From: Acidimicrobiaceae bacterium
GTDB lineage: Bacteria; Actinomycetota; Acidimicrobiia; Acidimicrobiales; Aldehydirespiratoraceae
DNA length: 46,426 nt
Assembly: GCA_028819505.1 (NCBI GenBank)
Contig: JAPPLH010000024.1
Span: forward strand, 1 to 46,426
Reading direction: 5' to 3'
Part shown: positions 29,890 through 42,527 of the stretch, piece by piece
Position numbering within the stretch: position 1 is the first letter of the stretch
How the letters are laid out: each line of letters begins with the position of its first letter
Notes under the pieces: generated by a model
The model's database searches: none
What the model saw: the letters and a program-made list of their open reading frames with translations, nothing else
What the model was told of the DNA's origin: nothing
Made by a program: the position numbers and the translations under genes

Positions 29890-31977
29890 CTAGCCGTACG
29901 CACCGAACCAGGCGTCGTGCAGGCGGCCGTAGACGCCGCTCTCCGCAAGGTCGAGCAGCGCGAGGTTGACTCGCTCGCGCAACTCGGCGTCGTGCTCGCT
30001 GAGAATGAGTCCGTACTGGACCCGCTGGAAGTCCGGCCCGACGGCAGACACTTCGCCGGCGCCCTCACGGGCTGCGTGGTACCGGAGAACCGGAGCGTCG
30101 AACACGACCGCTTCGACCCCGCCCTCCGACAGCAGCAGGTAGGCGTCGTCGACGCGGTCGACGACAACCGGCCCCACCCCGATCGAAGGAAGGTACGACT
30201 CGCCGGCGGAGTGGACCACGGTGGCGACCCGGCGACCGGGGAGGTCGTCCGGTCCCGAGATCTCCGATCGCAGCTCGCTGACGGCCAGCGACGAGGCGAT
30301 GGCCGCGGTGAAGCTGGCGAAGACCAGAGTCCCCAGCGCGATCCAGATGAGGGCGAGCACCCGCCCCCTGGTGCCGCGGGCCACCTTGTCGCCGTACCCG
30401 ACGGTGCTCATGGTCACCACCGACCAGTAGAAGGAGTCCCAGATGCCCTCGCGGTAGGGGACCGCGAAGTCGGGATTGTGCCGGCGCTCCAGCCACCAGA
30501 TCATGTGCGCGGCGACCAGCACCGCCAGCCCGAACACCACCAGCAGCCAGGGCAGGTCCGACGACGCGACGGCGCGGAAGAAAGACAGGATCCGGTCGTC
30601 GAGGCCCCGGGAGTCGTCGGAAGTGGTCAGGATGGTCAGGCCGGAGTCGAGGACGGGCACGGAGAAGTCGGCGACCTCCTCGCGCGCGCCGGTGATCGCT
30701 ACCCCGCCCAGCCCGACCTGCGCGGCGCCGCGGGCGATGTCGTCGATCTGTTTGGCGACCGTGTCGACGGCATGGATCTCCACTTCCATGCCGAGCTGCG
30801 CTCCGACCAGGCGCACGAGCTCCACCTCGAAGCCGCTGTAGGCGCGGTCCTCGTAGATCACGAACGGCGGCAGCGGGCGGGCCGCCACCCTGAGCGTTCC
30901 CGACGCGGCGGCGTCGCCGGCCTCGTCGTCGAGGGCTACCGCGTCGGGGTCGGCGGTCTCGATCCAGCGGGTGACCGCGGCCAGGTTGGCCTCGATCCAC
31001 TCCTCGGCGTGTCGCCGGATGTCCTGGGGGTCGCCGCCGAGCTGCACCATGCGGATGTTCTGGGCAGAGATGTCCTCCAGCGGGATCACCACCTGCTCCA
31101 GCAGCCGCCGCACCGATGGGTTGGCGTCCAGGAAATCGGAGTTGGCCACCACCCGTATGTCGTTGGGCGGCCAGCCGGTCTGGCATGGATCGTCCGCGCA
31201 CCCGTCTATCCCGGCGATGGCGGTGCGGTCCAGCGCGGCCGCCTGGTCCGGCGGCAGTGACGGGAACGGGACCTCGAGCCACACGGCGTCGCGCCCGGGG
31301 ACCAGCTCGCCGATCGTCCAGTTGGGGGTCCAAGTGTAGTACAGCACCGGCCGGCCGTCCCGGTAGCGGGCGATGGCCTCGGAGATGAGAGGCGAGTAGT
31401 CTCCCTGGACCTGCTCCACGGTTCCTGTGAGCCCGAAGGCGCTCAGGTGATGGTCGATCGTCGCGGCGCACGACCACCCGACCTCGCACCCGACCAGGTC
31501 GGCCCGGCCGTCGCCGTCATGGTCGAACAGCCCGGCGACGGCCGGGTCGGCGAGATCGCCGAGGTTCGTGATGCCGTGGGACCCGGCCGTGGCCGCGTCT
31601 ACGAAGTAGCCCTGGAGGGCGCCGTCGTCGACCTGCGTGCCCACGACCTCGACCGAGTCGACCCCCTCGAGGTAGGAGTCGTGCAGCGGGAACCACCCGC
31701 TGGCCCAGAGATCGACCTCTCCCGCGGCGACGGCCTCATAGAACTCCGGGTTGCCCATCGTCACCGGGCCGTCCACCCGGTAGCCGAGCCGCTCCAGCAG
31801 GAGCCTGTACACCTCTGCCTGGAACCAGCCGGTGTCCCAGGAGGGGCGGGCCATGCGAACCGCGGGCCTGTCGCCGGACGCGCCCTGCGCCGCCGCGGCG
31901 CCCCCCGGAACGGCCAGAATGAGCGCCGCGAGCACCACGACGGCGATTGAGGCTCGGCGCATGGGCGGCACCCGCAT
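29890..31977 (-). CDS. Betaine-type binding domain fused to a GluR0-like ligand-gated potassium channel
   Basis: The product has 695 residues. A signal peptide (about 1-30) is followed by an OpuAC/ProX-like domain (38-340) with Trp-rich elements WASGWFP (91-97), GCEVGWSC (163-170) and WTPNW (216-220) and a DHDGDGRAD loop. Next comes the first lobe of a second binding domain (361-455) with TLRVAARPLPPF and ITGAREEVADFS, where Arg432 matches the residue that holds an amino-acid carboxylate. A membrane helix (475-496) precedes a pore loop with selectivity filter TVGYG (525-529) and a second helix (538-562). The other lobe (571-692) has AVVFDAP (Asp627). Lobe-channel-lobe order is that of bacterial GluR0. 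No stop or frameshift separates the parts. The ATG at 31977 is the longest start; a second Met follows five codons later. Confidence 0.88.
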   Translation of the reverse strand: MRVPPMRRASIAVVVLAALILAVPGGAAAAQGASGDRPAVRMARPSWDTGWFQAEVYRLLLERLGYRVDGPVTMGNPEFYEAVAAGEVDLWASGWFPLHDSYLEGVDSVEVVGTQVDDGALQGYFVDAATAGSHGITNLGDLADPAVAGLFDHDGDGRADLVGCEVGWSCAATIDHHLSAFGLTGTVEQVQGDYSPLISEAIARYRDGRPVLYYTWTPNWTIGELVPGRDAVWLEVPFPSLPPDQAAALDRTAIAGIDGCADDPCQTGWPPNDIRVVANSDFLDANPSVRRLLEQVVIPLEDISAQNIRMVQLGGDPQDIRRHAEEWIEANLAAVTRWIETADPDAVALDDEAGDAAASGTLRVAARPLPPFVIYEDRAYSGFEVELVRLVGAQLGMEVEIHAVDTVAKQIDDIARGAAQVGLGGVAITGAREEVADFSVPVLDSGLTILTTSDDSRGLDDRILSFFRAVASSDLPWLLVVFGLAVLVAAHMIWWLERRHNPDFAVPYREGIWDSFYWSVVTMSTVGYGDKVARGTRGRVLALIWIALGTLVFASFTAAIASSLAVSELRSEISGPDDLPGRRVATVVHSAGESYLPSIGVGPVVVDRVDDAYLLLSEGGVEAVVFDAPVLRYHAAREGAGEVSAVGPDFQRVQYGLILSEHDAELRERVNLALLDLAESGVYGRLHDAWFGAYG

Positions 31978-32142: not shown

Positions 32143-33966
32143 ATGGGTGCCGAAGACACGGGGGCGGAGGTGGATCCGCGGATCCACCGCAGCCCTGATG
32201 ACACCGACATCAACCTGACCGAGGCGACGCTCGCCCTGCACGACTGGGAGGAGGAGGAGGAGCGCCGCCGCGAGGAGGCGATCGCCAACCGCAAGTCCTT
32301 CGAGGGCCTGCAGGTCGATCCCGACATCGACTTCTACCCCGAGGTCTCCGACCGGGAGCCCGGGGACCGCAACATCGTGCGGGCCGGGTTCGACATCCAC
32401 CCGCAGGTGACGTTCTGGGCGTCGGGGTTCCTGGTGGTGTTCATCTGCCTGTCGATATTCGTCGACGCCACCCAGGACGTGTTCAGCGAGATTCTCGACT
32501 TCATCAACGAGTCGCTCGGCTGGTTCTACATCCTCGACTTCAACATCTTCGTGCTGGTGGCGATGTACTTCGCCTTCAGCCGCTACGGGAAGATCAAGCT
32601 GGGCGGGCCCTTCGCCCTGCCGGAGTTCTCCACCGTCTCCTGGTATGCGATGCTGCTGTCGGCGGGGTTGGGCATCGGACTGATGTTCTGGGGGGTCGCC
32701 GAGCCGATCTTCCACTTCACGTCTCCTGCGCCGCTGTTCGACGTGGAGCCGGGCTCCATCGACGCGGGCAAGGCCGCGCTGGCCACCACCTACCTGCACT
32801 GGGGCATCCACGGTTGGGCCCTGTACGGGCTGACGGCGCTGGCGCTGGGGTTCTTCGCCTACAACCGGGGCCTGCCGCTGACGTTCCGGTCGATCTTCTA
32901 CCCGATCCTCGGGCCGAGGATCTACGGCACCTGGGGCCACGTCATCGACATCCTGACGGTCATCGCGACGCTGTTCGGGCTGGCCACGTCGCTGGGCTTC
33001 GGCGCCCAGCAGGGGGCTGCCGGCCTCAACAAGCTCTTCGGGCTGCCCGACGAGACATGGTTCCAGATCGTCCTGATCCTGGCCATCACCGGCTTGGCCA
33101 CCATCTCGGTGGTCGCCGGCCTCGATGCGGGGGTCAAGCGGCTCAGCGAGCTGAACATCTGGCTGGCGGGCGCCTTCCTGGTGTTCCTGCTGCTGGTGGG
33201 ACCGACGCTGTTCATCCTGTCGCTGTACACCCAGAGCCTGGGCTACTACGTCCAGGTCCTGCCGGAGTTCGCGTTCTGGAACGCAGCCTTCCAGGAGACC
33301 CAGTGGCAGGCCTGGTGGACGATCTTCTACTGGGGATGGTGGATCTCGTGGTCGCCGTTCGTGGGGATGTTCATCGCCAGGATCTCCAAGGGCCGCTCCG
33401 TGCGCGAGCTGCTCATGGGAGTGATCTTCCTGCCGTCGATCCTGTGCTTCCTGTGGATGTCGGTGTTCGGCGGCTCGGCCATCAACCTGCAGATGACCGG
33501 CGAGCGCGACGTGGCCACCGCGGTCAACGACAACGTGGCCACGGCCCTGTTCGACATGCTGGAGGCCTTCCCGCTCACCGACATCGTCTCCTTCATCGGA
33601 GTGCTGCTGCTGATCTCGTTCTTCGTGACCTCCTCGGACTCCGGCTCGCTGGTGGTCGACCACCTCACCTCAGGCGGCAAGCTCGACTCGCCGAAGCCCC
33701 AGAGGGTGTTCTGGGCCGTGATGGAGGGCGTGGTGGCCATCGCGCTGCTGATCGGCGGCGGACTCAGCGCCCTGCAGACCGCGGCCGTCTCGATCGGACT
33801 GCCGTTCTCGGTGATCCTGCTGATCATGTGCTGGAGCATGAAGAAGGCCTTCGCCGAGGAGCTCGACCTGCTCGAGAGCCACTACGACGAGCAGATCTTC
33901 CGGGCCCAGCACAGCGGCCTGATCGCACAAGTGAAGGACAGGCTCGTCGAAGGGCCGAGGAAGTGA
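32143..33966 (+). CDS. BCCT family betaine/choline/carnitine transporter
   Basis: The product has 607 residues and about twelve membrane helices after an acidic 85-residue cytosolic tail. GLGIGLMFWGVAEP (175-188) is the glycine-rich helix of the family, LHWGIHGWALYGLTALALGFFAY follows, and WGWWISWSPFVGMF (about 396-409) carries the tryptophan box that binds trimethylammonium groups. It should import betaine or a related compatible solute with Na+ or H+; the precise substrate is not fixed by these motifs. AAGGGG lies before the ATG. It is divergent from the channel gene and 31 bp upstream of a binding-protein gene, which points to osmoprotection. Confidence 0.93.
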   Translation: MGAEDTGAEVDPRIHRSPDDTDINLTEATLALHDWEEEEERRREEAIANRKSFEGLQVDPDIDFYPEVSDREPGDRNIVRAGFDIHPQVTFWASGFLVVFICLSIFVDATQDVFSEILDFINESLGWFYILDFNIFVLVAMYFAFSRYGKIKLGGPFALPEFSTVSWYAMLLSAGLGIGLMFWGVAEPIFHFTSPAPLFDVEPGSIDAGKAALATTYLHWGIHGWALYGLTALALGFFAYNRGLPLTFRSIFYPILGPRIYGTWGHVIDILTVIATLFGLATSLGFGAQQGAAGLNKLFGLPDETWFQIVLILAITGLATISVVAGLDAGVKRLSELNIWLAGAFLVFLLLVGPTLFILSLYTQSLGYYVQVLPEFAFWNAAFQETQWQAWWTIFYWGWWISWSPFVGMFIARISKGRSVRELLMGVIFLPSILCFLWMSVFGGSAINLQMTGERDVATAVNDNVATALFDMLEAFPLTDIVSFIGVLLLISFFVTSSDSGSLVVDHLTSGGKLDSPKPQRVFWAVMEGVVAIALLIGGGLSALQTAAVSIGLPFSVILLIMCWSMKKAFAEELDLLESHYDEQIFRAQHSGLIAQVKDRLVEGPRK

Positions 33967-33997: not shown

Positions 33998-35014
33998 ATG
34001 AGAAACCAGAGACGCAACGCCATGGTCCTGGCCGGAGCGTTGGCCGCCCTCGTCGTCGTGGCCCTCGTCGTGATCTTCAGCGGCGAGGAGGAGGACCGGA
34101 CGGTGAGCATGGCCCGGGCCAACTGGTCCAGCGGCTACATGCAGGCCGAGATATACGCGCAGCTCATCGGCGAGCTGGGCTACACGGTCACGGACCCTGC
34201 CGACCACACCCTCAACCCGTACTCCTTCTATCCCGCGCTGGACAGCGGGCAGTACGACCTGTGGGCGAACGGCTGGTTCCCCACCCACGACATCTACCTC
34301 ACGTCGGAGACGGCCGCCGGGCTGGAGTACGACCGCAGCATCGAAGCGGTCGGGCAGCAGGTCGAATCGGGTGCTCTCCAGGGGTACATGATCGACAAGG
34401 CCACCGCTGACAGCATGGGAATCACCTCGATGAGCCAGCTGGCCGACGCGTCGGTGGCCGCGGTGTTCGACCAGGACGGCGACGGCCTCGCCGACCTGAT
34501 CGGATGCAACGAGGGCTGGGGCTGCGCGACGATCATCGACAACCACATCGCAGAGCTCGACTGGGGCGACAATGTGGAGCAGGTGTCGGGCGCCTACGGC
34601 GAGCTGATGCAGGGAGTCCAGGACAGGGTGGCGTCCGGCGACCCGGTGCTGTTCTATGCCTGGACGCCCAACTGGACCTACGAGGCGCTCGCACCGGGCG
34701 TCGACGCGGTCTGGCTGGAGTCGCCCGCCCTCGAGGACGACGAGGGCGCCACCGAGGTCCGCGGCCTCGCCGGCTGCTCCGGCAACCCCTGCAACCTGGG
34801 ATGGCCGGTCAACAGCATCCGTGCGGTGGGCAACAGCGAGTTCCTCGATGACAACCCCGACATCCGGCGGCTGCTCGAGCAGGTGCAGATCCCGCTGGCC
34901 GACATCGCCGCCCAGAACGCTCGGGCGAACCCCGACGCCGAGGCCGACGCAGCCGCCTGGATCGCCGACAACCGGGCCCTGGTGGACATCTGGCTGGCCA
35001 ACGCCCAAAGCTGA
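33998..35014 (+). CDS. Glycine-betaine-type (ProX/OpuAC-like) substrate-binding protein
   Basis: The product has 338 residues. The N-terminal hydrophobic stretch (8-27) has no lipoprotein cysteine and may act as anchor or signal. The domain has MARANWSSGYMQAEIY (38-53), DLWANGWFPTHDIYL (87-101), DQDGDGLADLIGCNEGWGC (158-176) and AWTPNWTYEAL (221-231). These give tryptophans suited to a betaine cage. The same landmarks occur in order in the N-terminal domain of the channel fusion, so the two are paralogous. AAAGGAGG lies seven bases before the ATG. No ABC permease or ATPase gene is adjacent, so it may serve a distant transporter or be a sensor. Confidence 0.88.
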   Translation: MRNQRRNAMVLAGALAALVVVALVVIFSGEEEDRTVSMARANWSSGYMQAEIYAQLIGELGYTVTDPADHTLNPYSFYPALDSGQYDLWANGWFPTHDIYLTSETAAGLEYDRSIEAVGQQVESGALQGYMIDKATADSMGITSMSQLADASVAAVFDQDGDGLADLIGCNEGWGCATIIDNHIAELDWGDNVEQVSGAYGELMQGVQDRVASGDPVLFYAWTPNWTYEALAPGVDAVWLESPALEDDEGATEVRGLAGCSGNPCNLGWPVNSIRAVGNSEFLDDNPDIRRLLEQVQIPLADIAAQNARANPDAEADAAAWIADNRALVDIWLANAQS

Positions 35015-37267: not shown

Positions 37268-37381
37268 CCGTTCGGCAGGGACAAGCCCCGAGGGGCCGCT
37301 CGGCGCGACGGCAATGCCGGGCATGCAACGCACGGGCATGCAAAGCAGTTGCGCGAGCTGTTCGAGAGCGGAGTATGGTGC

Positions 37382-37401
37382 GAATCACAGCTGTGTGATT
37401 C
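37382..37401. promoter_or_regulatory. Dyad upstream of dnaE (possible operator)
   Basis: GAATCACA-GCTG-TGTGATTC is an inverted repeat with perfect 8-bp arms, 50 bp before the dnaE start. A weak TTGCGC/TATGGT pair with a long 19-base spacer lies just upstream, so the dyad would cover the transcription start. I cannot match it to a known regulator. Confidence 0.45.
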
Positions 37402-37441
37402 ATCCACAGATCCCTCAACACCCCGTCCACAGCGGTCCACA
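37400..37441 (+). promoter_or_regulatory. Three DnaA-box-like 9-mers upstream of dnaE
   Basis: TCATCCACA (37400-37408), CCGTCCACA (37423-37431) and CGGTCCACA (37433-37441) share the TCCACA core of actinobacterial DnaA boxes (TTGTCCACA), each with two mismatches. The last two are 10 bp apart, one helical turn. They lie in the probable leader of dnaE, so DnaA could influence its expression. Chance cannot be excluded. Confidence 0.4.
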
Positions 37442-37450
37442 GGAGGCGCA

Positions 37451-40400
37451 GTGGCTGACTCCTTCGTCCACCTCCACACCCACACCGAGTACTCGATACT
37501 CGACGGAGCATCCCGGCTCGACGACCTGATCGCGGCGGCCGCCGCCGACGGCCAGCCGGCCCTGGGCATCACCGACCACGGCAACATGTACGGCGTCCTC
37601 GACTTCTACCGCAAGTGCCACCAGCACGGCATCAAGCCTGTCATCGGCCTCGAGGCCTACATGGCCCACGAGTCGCGCTTCGAGCGTCCCCCGCGGCGGG
37701 GCCGGGTCGACGACTCCGGCGGCGACACCGACGGCGGCGGCAAGCTGTACTACCACCTGACCCTGCTGGCCACCGACAACACCGGCTACCGCAACCTCAT
37801 AAGGGTGGCCAGCCGAGCCTTCCTGGAGGGCTACTACTACAAGCCCCGCTGCGACTGGGAGACGCTGAACGACCACTCCGCCGGCCTCATCGCGACCACC
37901 GGCTGCCTCGGAGGCCAGGTTCCCCAAGCCCTGCTTCGGGGCAACCCCGACGAGGCCCTCGCCAAGGCGGCCCGGTTCCAGGAGATCTTCGGCCGGGACA
38001 ACTACTACGTGGAGATGCAGGACCACGGCATACCGGAGCAGCACCAGATCAACCCGCAGCTCCTCCGGATCGCCCGCAAGCTCAAGGCGCCCCTGCTGGC
38101 CACCAACGACAGCCACTACACCCACCGCCACGACGCCGAGGCCCACGACGCCCTGCTGTGCGTGCAGACCGGATCGCTGCTGTCCGACACCGACCGCCTC
38201 AAGTTCCACGGCGACGACCACTACCTCAAGACGGCTGCGGAGATGCGCCGGCTCTTCGCCGAGATCTCCGACGCGTGCGACAACACGGTCGCCATCGCGG
38301 AGCGCTCCGAGGTCGAGATCGAGTTCGGCACCCCGCGGCTGCCGCACTTCGAGGTGCCCGAAGGCTTCGAGGACGACCGCGCCTACCTCGAGCACCTCAC
38401 CCTGGCGGGGGCTCGCGAGCGCTGGGGAGACCCCCTGCCGGCCGCGGCGGCGGAGCGCCTGGCCTACGAGCTCGAAGTCATCAACAACATGGGGTTCGCC
38501 TCCTACTTCCTGATCACCTGGGACCTGATCGCCTACGCCCGCAGCCGGGGCATCCGGGTGGGCCCGGGCCGGGGCTCGGCCGCTGGGTGCGCGGTGGCCT
38601 ACAGCCTGCGCATCACCGACCTCGACCCGATCCGCTACGACCTGCTGTTCGAGCGGTTCCTGAACCCGTCGAGGGTGTCGATGCCCGACATCGACATGGA
38701 CTTCGACTCGCGTCACCGCGACGAGATCATCCGCTACGCCTCCCAGAAGTACAGCCGCGACGGCAAGGACCACGTGGCCCAGATCATCACCTTCGGCCGG
38801 ATCAAGGCCCGGGCGGCGGTGCGCGACGCGGCCCGCGTCCTCGGCTACCCCCACTCCCTCGGCGACCGCATCGCCAAGGCCATGCCGCCGCTGATCCTGG
38901 GCCGCGACACCCCGCTGCGGTACTGCTTCGAGGACTCCGAGGAGTACCGCGACGGGTACCAGGCCGCGGCCGAGCTGCGCCAGATGTGCGAGGCCGACCC
39001 CGACGCGGCCAAGGTGGTGGATACGGCCCGGGGCCTCGAGGGCATGCGCCGCCAGGACGGCATCCACGCCGCGGCCGTGGTGATCACCCCCGAGCCCCTC
39101 ATGGAGTACATGCCCATCCAGCGCAAGCCGGATTCCGGCGGCGACCCGGGCGCCGCCCCGATCGTCACCCAGTACGAGATGCACGGCGTGGAGGACCTGG
39201 GCCTGCTCAAGATGGACTTCCTGGGCCTGCGCAACCTCGACGTCATCACCGATACGGTCCGGCTGGTCGAGCGCACCAGGGGCGCCGCCATCGACGTCGA
39301 CGCCGTCCCGCTCGACGACGACGCCACCTTCGCGATGCTGCGGGAGGGCGACACCGTCGGCGTGTTCCAGTTGGAGAACCCCCAGGTGCGCTCGCTGGTG
39401 CGCTCGCTGGCGCCCACCGCCTTCGACGACGTCTGCGCGCTGGTGGCGCTGTACCGGCCCGGCCCGATGGCGGCCAACATGCACCACGACTACGCCGACC
39501 GCAAGAACGGCCGCCGGCCGGTCGAGTACTTCCACGACGACGCAGAGGCCATCCTGTCCGACACCTACGGGCTGATGATCTACCAGGAGAGCGTTATGCG
39601 GGTGGCCCAGAAGTTCGCGGGCTACTCCCTGGCGGAGGCCGACTCGCTCCGCAAGGCGATGGGCAAGAAGATCCGCTCCGCCATGGCGGCCGAGGAGGAG
39701 AAGTTCGTGGCCGGCGTGGCCTCCAACGGCTACGAAAAGGGCCTGGGCGCCCAGCTGTTCAGGATCATCGAGCAGTTCGCCGACTACGCCTTCAACAAGA
39801 GCCACAGCTACGGCTACGGGCTGGTCGCCTACCAGACCGCCTTCCTGAAGGCCAACTACCCGGTGGAGTACCTCGCGGCCCTCCTCACCAGCGTCAAGCG
39901 CAAGCTGGAGAACGCGTCGGTCTACCTCAACGAGTGCCGGCTGCGGGGCATCGAGGTGCTGGTCCCCGACGTCAACCGGTCGGCCTCGGACTTCACTCCC
40001 GTGCCCTACCACGGCGAGGAGGCGGCGTCCGGCCCGGGCCGGATCGTCTACGGCCTGTCCGCGGTGCGCAACGTGGGCGAGGGCGTCGTGGAGCGGGTGA
40101 TCGCCGAGCGGGAGGCCGGCGGCCCCTTCGAGTCCTTCACCGACTTCGTGGAGCGGGTCGACATGGACATCCTCAACAAGCGCACCGTCGAGTCTCTGAT
40201 CAAGGCGGGCGCCTTCGACTCGCTCGGCCATCCCCGCAAGGGACTGCTGAACGCCCACGACCGGATCATCGACATGACGCTGAGCATGCGGCGCGAGCAC
40301 GAGGCCGGCGTGATGTCGCTGTTCGGGGAGCCCGACGACGGGCCCGCCTTCGACGACAGGCCCCCGATCTCCGACGTCGAGTTCGAGCGGATGCAGAAGC

Positions 40401-41014
40401 TGGCCCACGAGAAGGAGATGCTCGGCCTGTACATCTCCGACCATCCGCTCAAGGGGATGGAGGCCCGCATCCGCCGCCAGGCCGACTGCACCATCGGCGA
40501 CCTCGCCTCCGGGGAGACCGACAGCGACGACGCCGGCTGGCGGTCGGTCGGCGGGGTGATCACGGGCCTGCAGCGGCGCTGGACCCGCAAGGGCGAGCTG
40601 ATGGCCTCCTTCGCGCTGGAGGACCTCGAGGACAAGATCGAGGTGCTGGTGTTCCCAAAGGCCATGTCCGAGCACGGCCCGAAGCTGGCCGACGACGCGG
40701 TCGTCGTGGTGCGGGGACGGCTCGACACCAAGGAGGACTCGCTCCGGTTCTTCGCCAACGACGTCCACTTGGTGGAACGCGCCGAGGAGGATCTTCCGCT
40801 GCGGGTCAACCTGCCGCCGGAGCACCAGAGCGACCGGCGGCTGCTCCAGCTCAAGTCCGTGCTGTGCGCCCATCCCGGCGACTCTCCGGTGGAGCTCCTG
40901 CTGGGCGGCCGGCGTGTGGCGAGGCTGCCGGAGGACTTCGCCGTGGACACCGCCAACGGCCTGCCGGCCGAGTTGAGGGAACTGCTCGGCGCGGAGGCCA
41001 TCGCCGCCGGCTGA
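37451..41014 (+). CDS. dnaE: DNA polymerase III alpha subunit DnaE
   Basis: The product has 1187 residues from GTG 37451, preceded by AGGAGG at five bases. The N-terminal PHP domain begins [36 protein letters not shown] and NDSHYTHR supply metal ligands. The palm has [15 protein letters not shown] and [16 protein letters not shown] (about 411-426), which holds two catalytic aspartates. [31 protein letters not shown] belongs to the fingers and beta-binding region. An OB fold ([19 protein letters not shown]) lies near 1037 onward. It is the replicative polymerase, DnaE1 type by length. The frame is open upstream to 37349, but the family starts at the GTG. The last residues (LLGAEA) are duplicated in the DNA beyond the stop. 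Confidence 0.97.
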   Translation: [1187 protein letters not shown]

Positions 41015-41087
41015 TCTCTGATGCGCGGCTGATCTCTGATGTGTCTGCCCGAGCGCTCGCGGCGGCGGGACTGCTCGGCGCGGAGGC
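40981..41087. repeat. Direct repeats around the dnaE stop
   Basis: An 18-bp piece of the last dnaE codons (40981-40998) recurs after the gene at 41070-41087 (89-bp period). A 16-bp piece including the stop (41008-41023) recurs at 41026-41041 (18-bp period). The gap to the next gene therefore partly consists of copied dnaE 3' sequence. Confidence 0.9.
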
Positions 41088-41221
41088 TGGTCCGCGGAGG
41101 CGTCTTGTGCCCGGCAGGGCCGCCGCCGGCGCGAAACGGCGCCCGGAAGGTTGCGAAACCGGCCCGCGCCCCTGAGACTTGAAGGCGGACGGTACGGCAA
41201 GCGACAGGGGTGGAAGCCGTC

Positions 41222-41890
41222 ATGGCGATCGCGATCGAGACCAGGGACTGCACAGCGCTGGGGGATTCCGATCTGGCCGAGATGGCCGATCTCTGCACTG
41301 TCTCCTCCAACGCATACGAGGTGGGCTCCCTGTCCAAGCAGGCCGAGGCCTGGGTGCTGGTGACCGAGGCCCGCGACAACGGCAAGCTGCGCGGCTTCTC
41401 GTTCTGCACGCTGGAGCGCATCGGCGGGACGCCCTGTGTTCTCATCGGCGCAGGCCACACCTGCCGCACCACCCGCCGCGCCACAGTCCTGAGAGGCATC
41501 GTCACCGACCAACTCCGCCGGGCCGCCCTGTCGTTCCCCGACGAGGACGTCCTGGTCGGCATGCAGATCAACGATCCGGGCGCCTTCGAGGCCTTCAAGA
41601 ACCTCCACGACGTGGTGCCCCGGTCGGGCCACAAGGCGACCGGCGAGGAGCGGGCATGGGGCCGCCGCCTCGCCAAGCGCTTCGGCATCGGCAGCCTCAG
41701 CTACGAGGACCGCATCTTCACCACCCGCGGCAAGGGCGGCCCGCCGGTGGTGCTCGACCACGCCAGCCTCAAGCCCCAGCAGATCCGAACCGAGACCGCC
41801 GCGCTGCTCGACGGCCTGGTCCGCGATGACGGCGACACGCTGATCGTTCACGGCTGGGTGATGGCCGAGGAGCTCGAGAAGCTCCTGTAG
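41222..41890 (+). CDS. Conserved-looking protein of unknown function
   Basis: The product has about 222 residues from ATG 41222; GTG 41210 would add four. I do not recognise a named domain. The layout (SDLAEMADLCTVSSNAYEVG, then WVLVTEARDNGKLRGFSFCTLERIGGTPCVLIGAG) followed by helices and VLVGMQINDPGAFEAF loosely recalls an acetyltransferase (GNAT) fold, but the acetyl-CoA loop is not clear. A C-terminal part (TLIVHGWVMAEELEKLL) closes the protein. It is soluble, without signal or membrane segments. It lies between dnaE and a nitroreductase gene on the same strand, 37 bp before the latter. Confidence 0.6.
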   Translation: MAIAIETRDCTALGDSDLAEMADLCTVSSNAYEVGSLSKQAEAWVLVTEARDNGKLRGFSFCTLERIGGTPCVLIGAGHTCRTTRRATVLRGIVTDQLRRAALSFPDEDVLVGMQINDPGAFEAFKNLHDVVPRSGHKATGEERAWGRRLAKRFGIGSLSYEDRIFTTRGKGGPPVVLDHASLKPQQIRTETAALLDGLVRDDGDTLIVHGWVMAEELEKLL

Positions 41891-41927
41891 CCACAGGCCG
41901 AGCGCCCGCAGCCGGCGCGGCGGGGCC

Positions 41928-42527
41928 ATGGAGTTCGAGCGGGCGGTCCGGCGGCGCCGGATGGTGCGCTCGTTCTCGCGCGAGCCGGTGGCGCCGGGCG
42001 TGGTCGACGAAGTCTGCGACCTGGCCCGCCGGGCGCCGACCGCAGGCAACACCGCGGGGGTGGAGTTCCTGGTGCTGGAGGGGCGCCACACCGTGGCCTA
42101 CTGGGACGTGACCCTGCCTCCGGCGCGGCGGGACGGCTTCGCCTGGCCCGGGCTGCTGGCCGCGCCGGTGCTGATTGTGGCGTGGGTCGATCCGGGCGCG
42201 TACGTGAGCCGGTACCGCGAGCCCGACAAGGCCCGCACCGGCCTGGGCGCCGGCGAGGAGGCCTGGCCTGTGCCGTACTGGTTCGTGGACGGCGGGGCCG
42301 CGGTCATGACCATGCTGCTGGCCGCGCGGGACCGGGGGCTGGGCGCGGCCTTCTTCGGCATGTTCGACCACGAGGACGCGGTGCGGCGTCGCTTCGGTGT
42401 GCCGCCCGGGCGGCGAGGCGTGGGCACGGTGGCCATCGGCCGCCCGTCCGGCGACGACCGGCCCAGCCAGTCAGCCCGCCGGGGCCGCCCCCCACTCGAC
42501 GAGGTGCTCCACCGGTCCGGTTGGTAG
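41928..42527 (+). CDS. Nitroreductase family flavoprotein
   Basis: The product has 199 residues. The FMN-binding N-terminus reads FERAVRRRRMVRSFSREPV, with the basic RRRR..R.F motif that grips the FMN phosphate. DLARRAPTAGNTAGVEFLVL follows, then GAAVMTMLLAARDRGLGAAFFGMFDHEDAV and VGTVAIGRP, all family markers. Members are NAD(P)H-dependent FMN enzymes acting on nitro compounds, quinones or flavin-like substrates, or deaza-coenzyme dehalogenases; the substrate here is unknown. It is probably cotranscribed with the preceding unknown gene. Confidence 0.85.
   Translation: MEFERAVRRRRMVRSFSREPVAPGVVDEVCDLARRAPTAGNTAGVEFLVLEGRHTVAYWDVTLPPARRDGFAWPGLLAAPVLIVAWVDPGAYVSRYREPDKARTGLGAGEEAWPVPYWFVDGGAAVMTMLLAARDRGLGAAFFGMFDHEDAVRRRFGVPPGRRGVGTVAIGRPSGDDRPSQSARRGRPPLDEVLHRSGW

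Follow-up and report, generated by a model that had tools for sequence, protein, structure and literature searches.

The window, the whole stretch of 46,426 nucleotides analyzed here, carries a gene in which a ProX/OpuAC domain of the betaine-binding type is fused to a GluR0-type potassium channel. The architecture of the protein, its kept binding and filter residues, its membership in one family found in several phyla, and its physical and co-inheritance link to BCCT and OpuAC genes are established at the level of sequence. We consider it somewhat probable (roughly 55%) that the protein is a K+ channel which is gated or tuned by betaine outside the cell and which is partnered with BCCT uptake.

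Analysis of the open reading frames of the window showed a single unbroken ATG frame of 695 amino acids plus stop at 29890-31977, as the sequence-only reading of this DNA had reported; the frame lies on the minus strand, which that reading had left unstated, and the plus-strand reading of the same interval contains internal stops. Translation may in fact start at the second methionine (residue 6, base 31962), since in the homologue at locus L015 only one codon of the open frame precedes the corresponding Met. The protein consists, in this order, of a hydrophobic signal, a ProX/OpuAC domain, an S1 lobe, a helix, a TVGYGD loop, a helix and an S2 lobe. Four Pfam families were matched, each above its curated cut-off: OpuAC (residues 40-329, E 8e-48, 163.7 bits), a split SBP_bac_3 (362-692, E 2e-22) and, placed between the two SBP_bac_3 pieces, Ion_trans_2 (486-564, E 2e-14) and Lig_chan (477-580, E 6e-12). 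The first half also scored 343.5 bits with the NCBIfam ProX equivalog PRK11119 (cut-off 215). Hydropathy showed three hydrophobic stretches (3-33, signal-like; 469-497; 538-569); besides the signal there are only two, and a third membrane helix after S2 is therefore absent. The closest solved relatives in sequence comparisons are E. coli ProX (1r9l, E 7e-64, residues 52-341) for the first half and 2pyy, a bacterial glutamate-receptor ligand-binding domain, for the channel half (E 3e-36). Pfam, NCBIfam and hydropathy thus reproduce the domain order proposed from the letters alone, and Pfam, 2pyy and matches to AMPA-receptor structures agree with its assignment of the second part to the GluR0 design.

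An AlphaFold2 model of the fusion reached a mean pLDDT of 87.3 and a pTM of 0.58; it was built from an alignment of 95 sequences comprising 43 fusions, 27 stand-alone GluR0-like proteins, 24 stand-alone ProX proteins and the second ProX of the window. The top Foldseek match was 1r9l, which is ProX with glycine betaine (TM 0.90 of target, 37% identity), followed by AMPA-receptor chains covering the ligand-binding and membrane domains. The structure prediction that the earlier reading had called for consequently recovered both the ProX and the glutamate-receptor fold; at a pTM of 0.58 the predicted mutual placement of the two halves is not certain. A first model, made with 13 near relatives only, was poor (pLDDT 41) and was discarded.

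Table 1. Features of the fusion gene and its neighbors; positions are those of the window, residues those of the encoded protein.
Feature	Position	Strand	Evidence and remarks
OpuAC-GluR0 fusion channel gene	29890..31977	-	695 codons + stop; start possibly 31962
N-terminal hydrophobic segment, residues ~6-30, taken as signal peptide	31888..31962	-	Hydropathy
OpuAC/ProX betaine-binding-type domain, residues 40-329; W95, H99, W168, C170, W216	30991..31860	-	Pfam, 1r9l match
S1 lobe of ligand-binding domain, residues 362-456; R432	30610..30894	-	Pfam, structure relatives, residue tally
First transmembrane helix, residues 469-497	30487..30573	-	Pfam, hydropathy, model
K+ selectivity filter TVGYGD, residues 525-530	30388..30405	-	Sequence, alignment
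Second transmembrane helix, residues 538-565	30283..30366	-	Pfam, hydropathy, model
S2 lobe of ligand-binding domain, residues 572-692; D627	29902..30264	-	Pfam, structure relatives, residue tally
Gap between divergent channel and BCCT genes, 165 bases; putative shared regulatory region	31978..32142		Gene coordinates
BCCT betaine/choline/carnitine transporter, 607 aa, acidic N-terminal extension	32143..33966	+	Pfam BCCT 624 bits
Stand-alone ProX/OpuAC protein, 338 aa, N-terminal hydrophobic segment	33998..35014	+	OpuAC 146.7 bits; NCBIfam ProX 265.8 bits

The same OpuAC-GluR0 fusion was found at 47 other loci, which are mostly actinobacterial and include desulfobacterial, Chloroflexi and Kiritimatiellae members. 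A scan by sequence pattern, with each species represented by one genome, yielded 44 frames of more than 600 aa with both halves, and three more loci came from another class of the phylum. Because the scan relied on two exact peptide patterns (IWDSFYW and WTPNWT[VI]G) and 80 of 226 candidates were kept, 47 is a lower bound. Two of the loci counted (L060, L068) are each cut at one end by the contig, and fragments at five further loci (L052, L069, L070, L072 and L076, with L069 and L072 belonging to one genome) stand outside the count. Identity is 47-89% in the 44 other loci compared. By taxon label, the 44 loci of the pattern scan divide into 24 Acidimicrobiaceae/Acidimicrobiia, 12 labeled only 'bacterium', two Jiangellaceae (Haloactinopolyspora alba and Phytoactinopolyspora halophila), two Desulfosarcina/Desulfosarcinaceae, two delta-proteobacterial including an Olavius symbiont, one Chloroflexi and one Kiritimatiellae.

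Among 61 near genomes the full fusion is present in 12, including that of the window, and a thirteenth has it split over two contigs. Class-wide, 28 of 395 genomes match the channel half at 64% identity or more, 27 of them in frames of at least 692 aa, and 11 further genomes have only distant channel-half matches (29-40%) in shorter frames. In the phylum of the L071 genome (297 genomes) the fusion occurs only in that genome, 15 others having distant matches in frames of 252-503 aa; in the phylum of the L066 genome (301 genomes) it is again confined to that genome, and two others match in frames of 404 and 424 aa. The fusion looks rare in both phyla. In the Jiangellaceae set three of 22 genomes match, the third of them in pieces (genome G730, contig C2, 558278-560375): there are three pieces with a frame change after the first, for which decay or a sequence error is possible.

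Trees were calculated for each half (61 ProX rows and 38 channel rows). In both of them a branch sets the 27 fusion representatives apart from all other rows, with a support of 83 for the ProX half and 99 for the channel half, in short searches with limited comparison sets. This would fit a single fusion followed by wide spread. In the ProX tree the 27 fused rows and 13 stand-alone ProX rows that adjoin BCCT genes form separate groups (support 83 and 86, respectively), and the fused rows group with 20 other stand-alone ProX rows. The idea that the fused domain is a recent duplicate of the neighboring ProX was not supported by this tree, a short search on a limited sample. One scan of viral_contigs gave eight pattern-matched stretches, none of which encodes a relative.

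Residues were tallied in 43 aligned fusions, namely the window fusion and 42 of the 47 loci (L027, L028, L029, L032 and L051 were left out). In E. coli ProX two cis-prolines align Trp65 and Trp188 into the betaine box, as described in the sections of PMC8601584 consulted. In the sequence alignment to 1r9l these two tryptophans align with W95 and W216 of the fusion. W168 is presumably the counterpart of the third box tryptophan of ProX. W95, W168, C170, P97 and P218 are each present in 43 of 43 fusions. W216 is kept in 38 and replaced by F in five, and H99 is likewise kept in 38, with Q in four and F in one; we count the five replacements at each of these two positions against the betaine-gated reading. 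Since the second search pattern contains both W216 and P218, their conservation among the 24 stand-alone ProX rows reflects how these sequences were selected, and among the fusions it does so in part; W95, W168, H99 and C170 lie outside the search patterns.

In the lobe pair, the S1 arginine (R432) and the S2 aspartate (D627) are each found in 42 of 43 fusions; these two residues are named as amino-acid-holding features of prokaryotic glutamate receptors in the portion of PMC2950845 consulted. Y375 is invariant in the 43 fusions and variable among 27 stand-alone GluR0-like forms, five of which are gapped at this position. Position 591 is Thr in only 5 of 43 fusions versus 16 of 27 stand-alone forms, and Ala in 30 of 43 fusions. 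The tally suggests a lobe pair capable of binding an amino acid, which need not be, and perhaps is not, glutamate. A glycine-like ligand, guessed from the loss of Thr at 591, was dropped as too weak, Ala being present also in three of the 27 stand-alone forms.

The channel gene of the window and the BCCT gene point away from each other, and the BCCT gene is followed by the second ProX gene. The encoded transporter shares the family scores of BCCT proteins: it exceeds the Pfam BCCT cut-off of 27 with 624 bits and also the cut-off of TIGR00842. It differs from them by a long N-terminal extension and by its score with the best NCBIfam model, betaine_BCCT (glycine-betaine uptake), which is 545 with a cut-off of 650; because it stays below this equivalog cut-off, glycine betaine is only a candidate substrate, and we count this score against the betaine-gated reading. 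A promoter motif search in the 165-base gap showed little conservation across ten aligned upstream stretches.

A BCCT gene adjoins the fusion in 41 of the 47 loci (tblastn, E 1e-10). The gene orders vary: 28 loci are divergent like the window, five are convergent with ProX between, three have a tandem BCCT-ProX-channel order, two BCCT-channel and two BCCT-OpuAC-channel, and one (L060) is convergent with another small gene between. Four of the six misses (L029, L033, L062, L063) are cut by a nearby contig end on at least one side; at L061 and L067 no BCCT gene was found beside the fusion despite full 6-kb flanks, which speaks against the betaine-gated reading. In the controls, searched at E 1e-8, BCCT matched at none of 11 stand-alone GluR0 loci (Actinomycetota only, flanks from below 1 kb to about 9 kb) and at none of 26 stand-alone ProX loci, which were scanned for BCCT, ProX and channel matches and for which a role in ABC transport was assumed. 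The recurrent neighbors of the fusion are BCCT and OpuAC, and a Pfam scan of 19 distinct window frames gave no permease or ABC ATPase family match that could be an ABC partner of the fused ProX. Elsewhere in the genome of the window, on contig C35, another ProX relative has a BPD_transp_1 permease gene upstream.

Two observations concern the neighbors themselves. The stand-alone ProX gene at 33998-35014 adjoins the BCCT gene, and no ABC genes were found among the window frames scanned; to our knowledge, binding proteins are not usually paired with BCCT transporters. The N-terminal extension, with the pattern GLQ(V/I)-x-P ... EPG(D/E)-x-N ... DIHPQVT, occurs in the window BCCT (32143-32400) and in L151, L152, L153 and L156; it is common to module BCCTs of Actinobacteria, Chloroflexi and Kiritimatiellae and to the only BCCT detected in the genome of L062, and the BCCT partners from L071 and L073 are without it.

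Fusion and transporter are also inherited together. In a set of 20 near genomes (16 of the genus and four of the sister genus), 12 have both the fusion and a BCCT gene, six have neither and two have one alone (Fisher p 0.0012, relatedness ignored). The gene found alone is the fusion in genome G006, where it lies 147 bases from a contig end, and the BCCT in genome G004, where it runs to the contig end. None of the 20 genomes has a second full BCCT gene, and the only one found in the genome of the window is the neighbor of the fusion. Four genomes with stand-alone GluR0 genes have no BCCT. Of 12 further carriers from other lineages or outgroups, one of them a carrier by the fragment L070, 11 have a BCCT gene; in the L070 genome (G711) none was found in a genome search, a further point against the betaine-gated reading. 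Exactly one BCCT is present in seven of these 12, and in six of the seven it is the neighbor of the fusion; the BCCT of the remaining genome (L062) is on another contig, close to its end. The tie to compatible-solute supply that had been suspected from the window gains strength from the adjacency in 41 of 47 loci, its absence from the controls and the co-inheritance, and the gene context suggests that the cell may couple K+ flow to the uptake of a protective solute.

Given a GluR0 pore, a betaine-receptor domain and a link to a betaine-family transporter, betaine-controlled K+ release with charge balance is the simplest reading. The fusion gene would encode a single subunit of a GluR0-type K+ channel that is located in the plasma membrane and is probably a tetramer. 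Its extracellular part would have two storeys: far from the membrane a ProX clamshell that takes glycine betaine or a similar compound, and close to the membrane a second clamshell, the amino-acid-type domain that is split by the pore. Betaine outside the cell would make the ProX domain close on it, and closure would raise or permit pore opening, either by a direct effect or through a bias imposed on the lower domain. K+ would then leave the cell down its gradient, so that this emergency osmolyte would be carried out as betaine replaces it, and its exit would compensate for the positive charge that enters with a presumed Na+-coupled betaine uptake through BCCT, thereby holding the membrane potential. 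According to the Discussion of PMC13099474, osmotically stressed bacteria take up K+ first and later neutral solutes while releasing K+ glutamate. A stronger version, to which we give slightly less than even odds, is that betaine on the ProX domain directly opens the K+ pore, so that the channel, together with BCCT and the binding protein, makes up a hard-wired module for exchanging potassium against betaine, present in several phyla.

Against betaine gating stands that the ProX domain could bind its ligand without gating the pore. The fused domain might be a tethered scavenger that gathers betaine beside BCCT, as the stand-alone OpuAC protein may do, with an amino-acid-gated channel that merely balances charge. 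Of the 41 loci with BCCT, 38 also carry a separate OpuAC gene (tblastn; Pfam for L060, L071 and L073), and no such gene was found at L030, where the contig ends, L066 and L068; this second protein makes solute capture near BCCT seem a general theme, and the kept S1 arginine and S2 aspartate agree with a channel gated by an amino acid. However, a scavenger could do its work without being covalently joined to a pore, whereas the trees fit a single fusion event after which the two halves remained together, and we know of no BCCT transporter that accepts solute from a binding protein. We regard the scavenger as unlikely.

The direction of K+ flow is a second point on which the betaine-gated reading can be challenged. 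The one physiological study of GluR0 consulted, from Synechocystis, describes K+ entry, which as we analyze it speaks against outward flow: in the sections of PMC13099474 consulted, GluR0 has K+ uptake activity, termini facing outside and soluble domains that are needed, and it alters the volume change after KCl shock. The fusion might accordingly serve as an inward pathway through which K+ enters after osmotic or KCl shock, as proposed for Synechocystis GluR0, and which betaine binding closes when this better osmolyte becomes available. The same sections report that an E. coli strain deficient in K+ uptake can grow at low K+ when it has GluR0, and that after a KCl upshock the mutant loses volume more quickly. 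Passive K+ entry, on the other hand, requires high K+ outside or a strong membrane potential, and betaine as a closing signal is without direct support, which leaves the inward pathway with a small probability.

It is improbable that the protein is a non-conducting or non-selective sensor, with a pore that is vestigial in some members and a role as membrane anchor or general cation channel. Two Jiangellaceae fusions (L063, 5809-7944, and L067, 5980-8118) have lost the K+ filter and carry TPFGAGN in place of TVGYGD, and L067 is also without the S1 arginine. The pore of these two may no longer be K+ selective, and K+ selectivity is thus not universal in the family. The filter TVGYGD is nevertheless intact in 41 of 43 aligned fusions. 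In comparisons of the fusion with five relatives, dN/dS was 0.06-0.31 across four segments, showing purifying selection on all four, and the pore was the lowest segment in all five comparisons (0.06-0.13).

Chance origin of the gene is excluded by the Pfam E-values, the low dN/dS and the same architecture at 47 other loci. The sequence-only reading had named as refutations a frameshift or assembly join between the halves, which is absent, and an OpuAC part that is always a separate gene, whereas OpuAC is fused throughout the 47-locus family. An assembly or gene-fusion artefact can practically be discounted, as the fusion recurs in other genomes, at 47 loci, and two of these genomes belong to named strains that have a deposit number or strain code; we found no point in its favor.

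The channel half resembles the prokaryotic glutamate receptors of Group 1, to which GluR0 belongs, in the succession of S1, helix, K+ pore loop, helix and S2, in the GYG filter, in the S1 arginine and S2 aspartate, and in that its best solved relative, 2pyy, is a bacterial iGluR homologue (Group 1 as presented in the sections of Ger et al., 2010, PMC2950845, consulted). The fusion adds the N-terminal ProX domain, the BCCT linkage, the invariant Tyr 375 and the mostly Ala 591. In the sections consulted, Ger et al. (2010) describe a survey of 100 prokaryotic sequences of the glutamate-receptor motif; OpuAC, betaine and actinobacter have no occurrence in the text of PMC2950845, and no betaine domain is among those listed in the legend of its Fig. 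6. With E. coli ProX/OpuAC (1r9l) the fusion has in common the fold, the box residues and a score above the ProX equivalog cut-off; unlike ProX/OpuAC proteins it is fused to a channel, and no ABC partner genes were found among the window frames scanned.

With eukaryotic glutamate receptors (AMPA, NMDA) the fusion shares a clamshell N-terminal to the ligand-binding domain, and its model matches AMPA chains. Eukaryotic receptors have three membrane helices, the third after S2; the fusion has two and a K+ filter. Its upper domain belongs to the OpuAC family, which we take to be different from the family of the animal amino-terminal domain. The betaine-gated channels of nematodes are animal neuronal channels of the Cys-loop kind and have no ProX or GluR0 part. 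That nematode ligand-gated channels which respond to betaine exist (PMC9860315) means that betaine gating itself is not new; only its occurrence in bacteria and in a ProX-GluR0 kind of protein would be.

Channel, BCCT and OpuAC together look like a new gene module. Among the matches listed in open-licence PMC literature, searched by titles and abstract starts, we found no description of a channel with a betaine-binding domain, in line with the earlier statement that no characterized example was known, and none of a bacterial channel that senses an incoming solute and acts directly on K+. A betaine-domain GluR0 channel may already be listed as an architecture in InterPro-type domain databases. 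If betaine does open the pore directly, the N-terminal regulatory clamshell of glutamate receptors would have been invented a second time and independently, from a different binding-protein family than in animals. The family is a bacterial counterpart to brain glutamate receptors with their extracellular part of two storeys, and its candidate ligand is obvious; it makes the swap of K+ for compatible solute that bacteria perform in osmotic stress testable in one protein. Two named actinobacterial strains carry members, with an altered filter.

Further observations were made alongside. At L143, L200, L201, L202, L205, L207, L208, L210 and L211 there are stand-alone GluR0-like proteins whose pore loops are not of the GYG type (examples are TGGEAVK, AAGSSSHK and TQAEA); these are possible non-K+ relatives among the bacterial glutamate receptors. 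In the window, neither Pfam nor NCBIfam gave a match for a 1558-codon open frame on the minus strand (37415-42091), which overlaps a 1221-codon frame on the plus strand (37349-41014) and is for this reason probably an antisense frame. At L084 (2487-9236), from Marinimicrococcus flavescens, six ProX matches lie in tandem.
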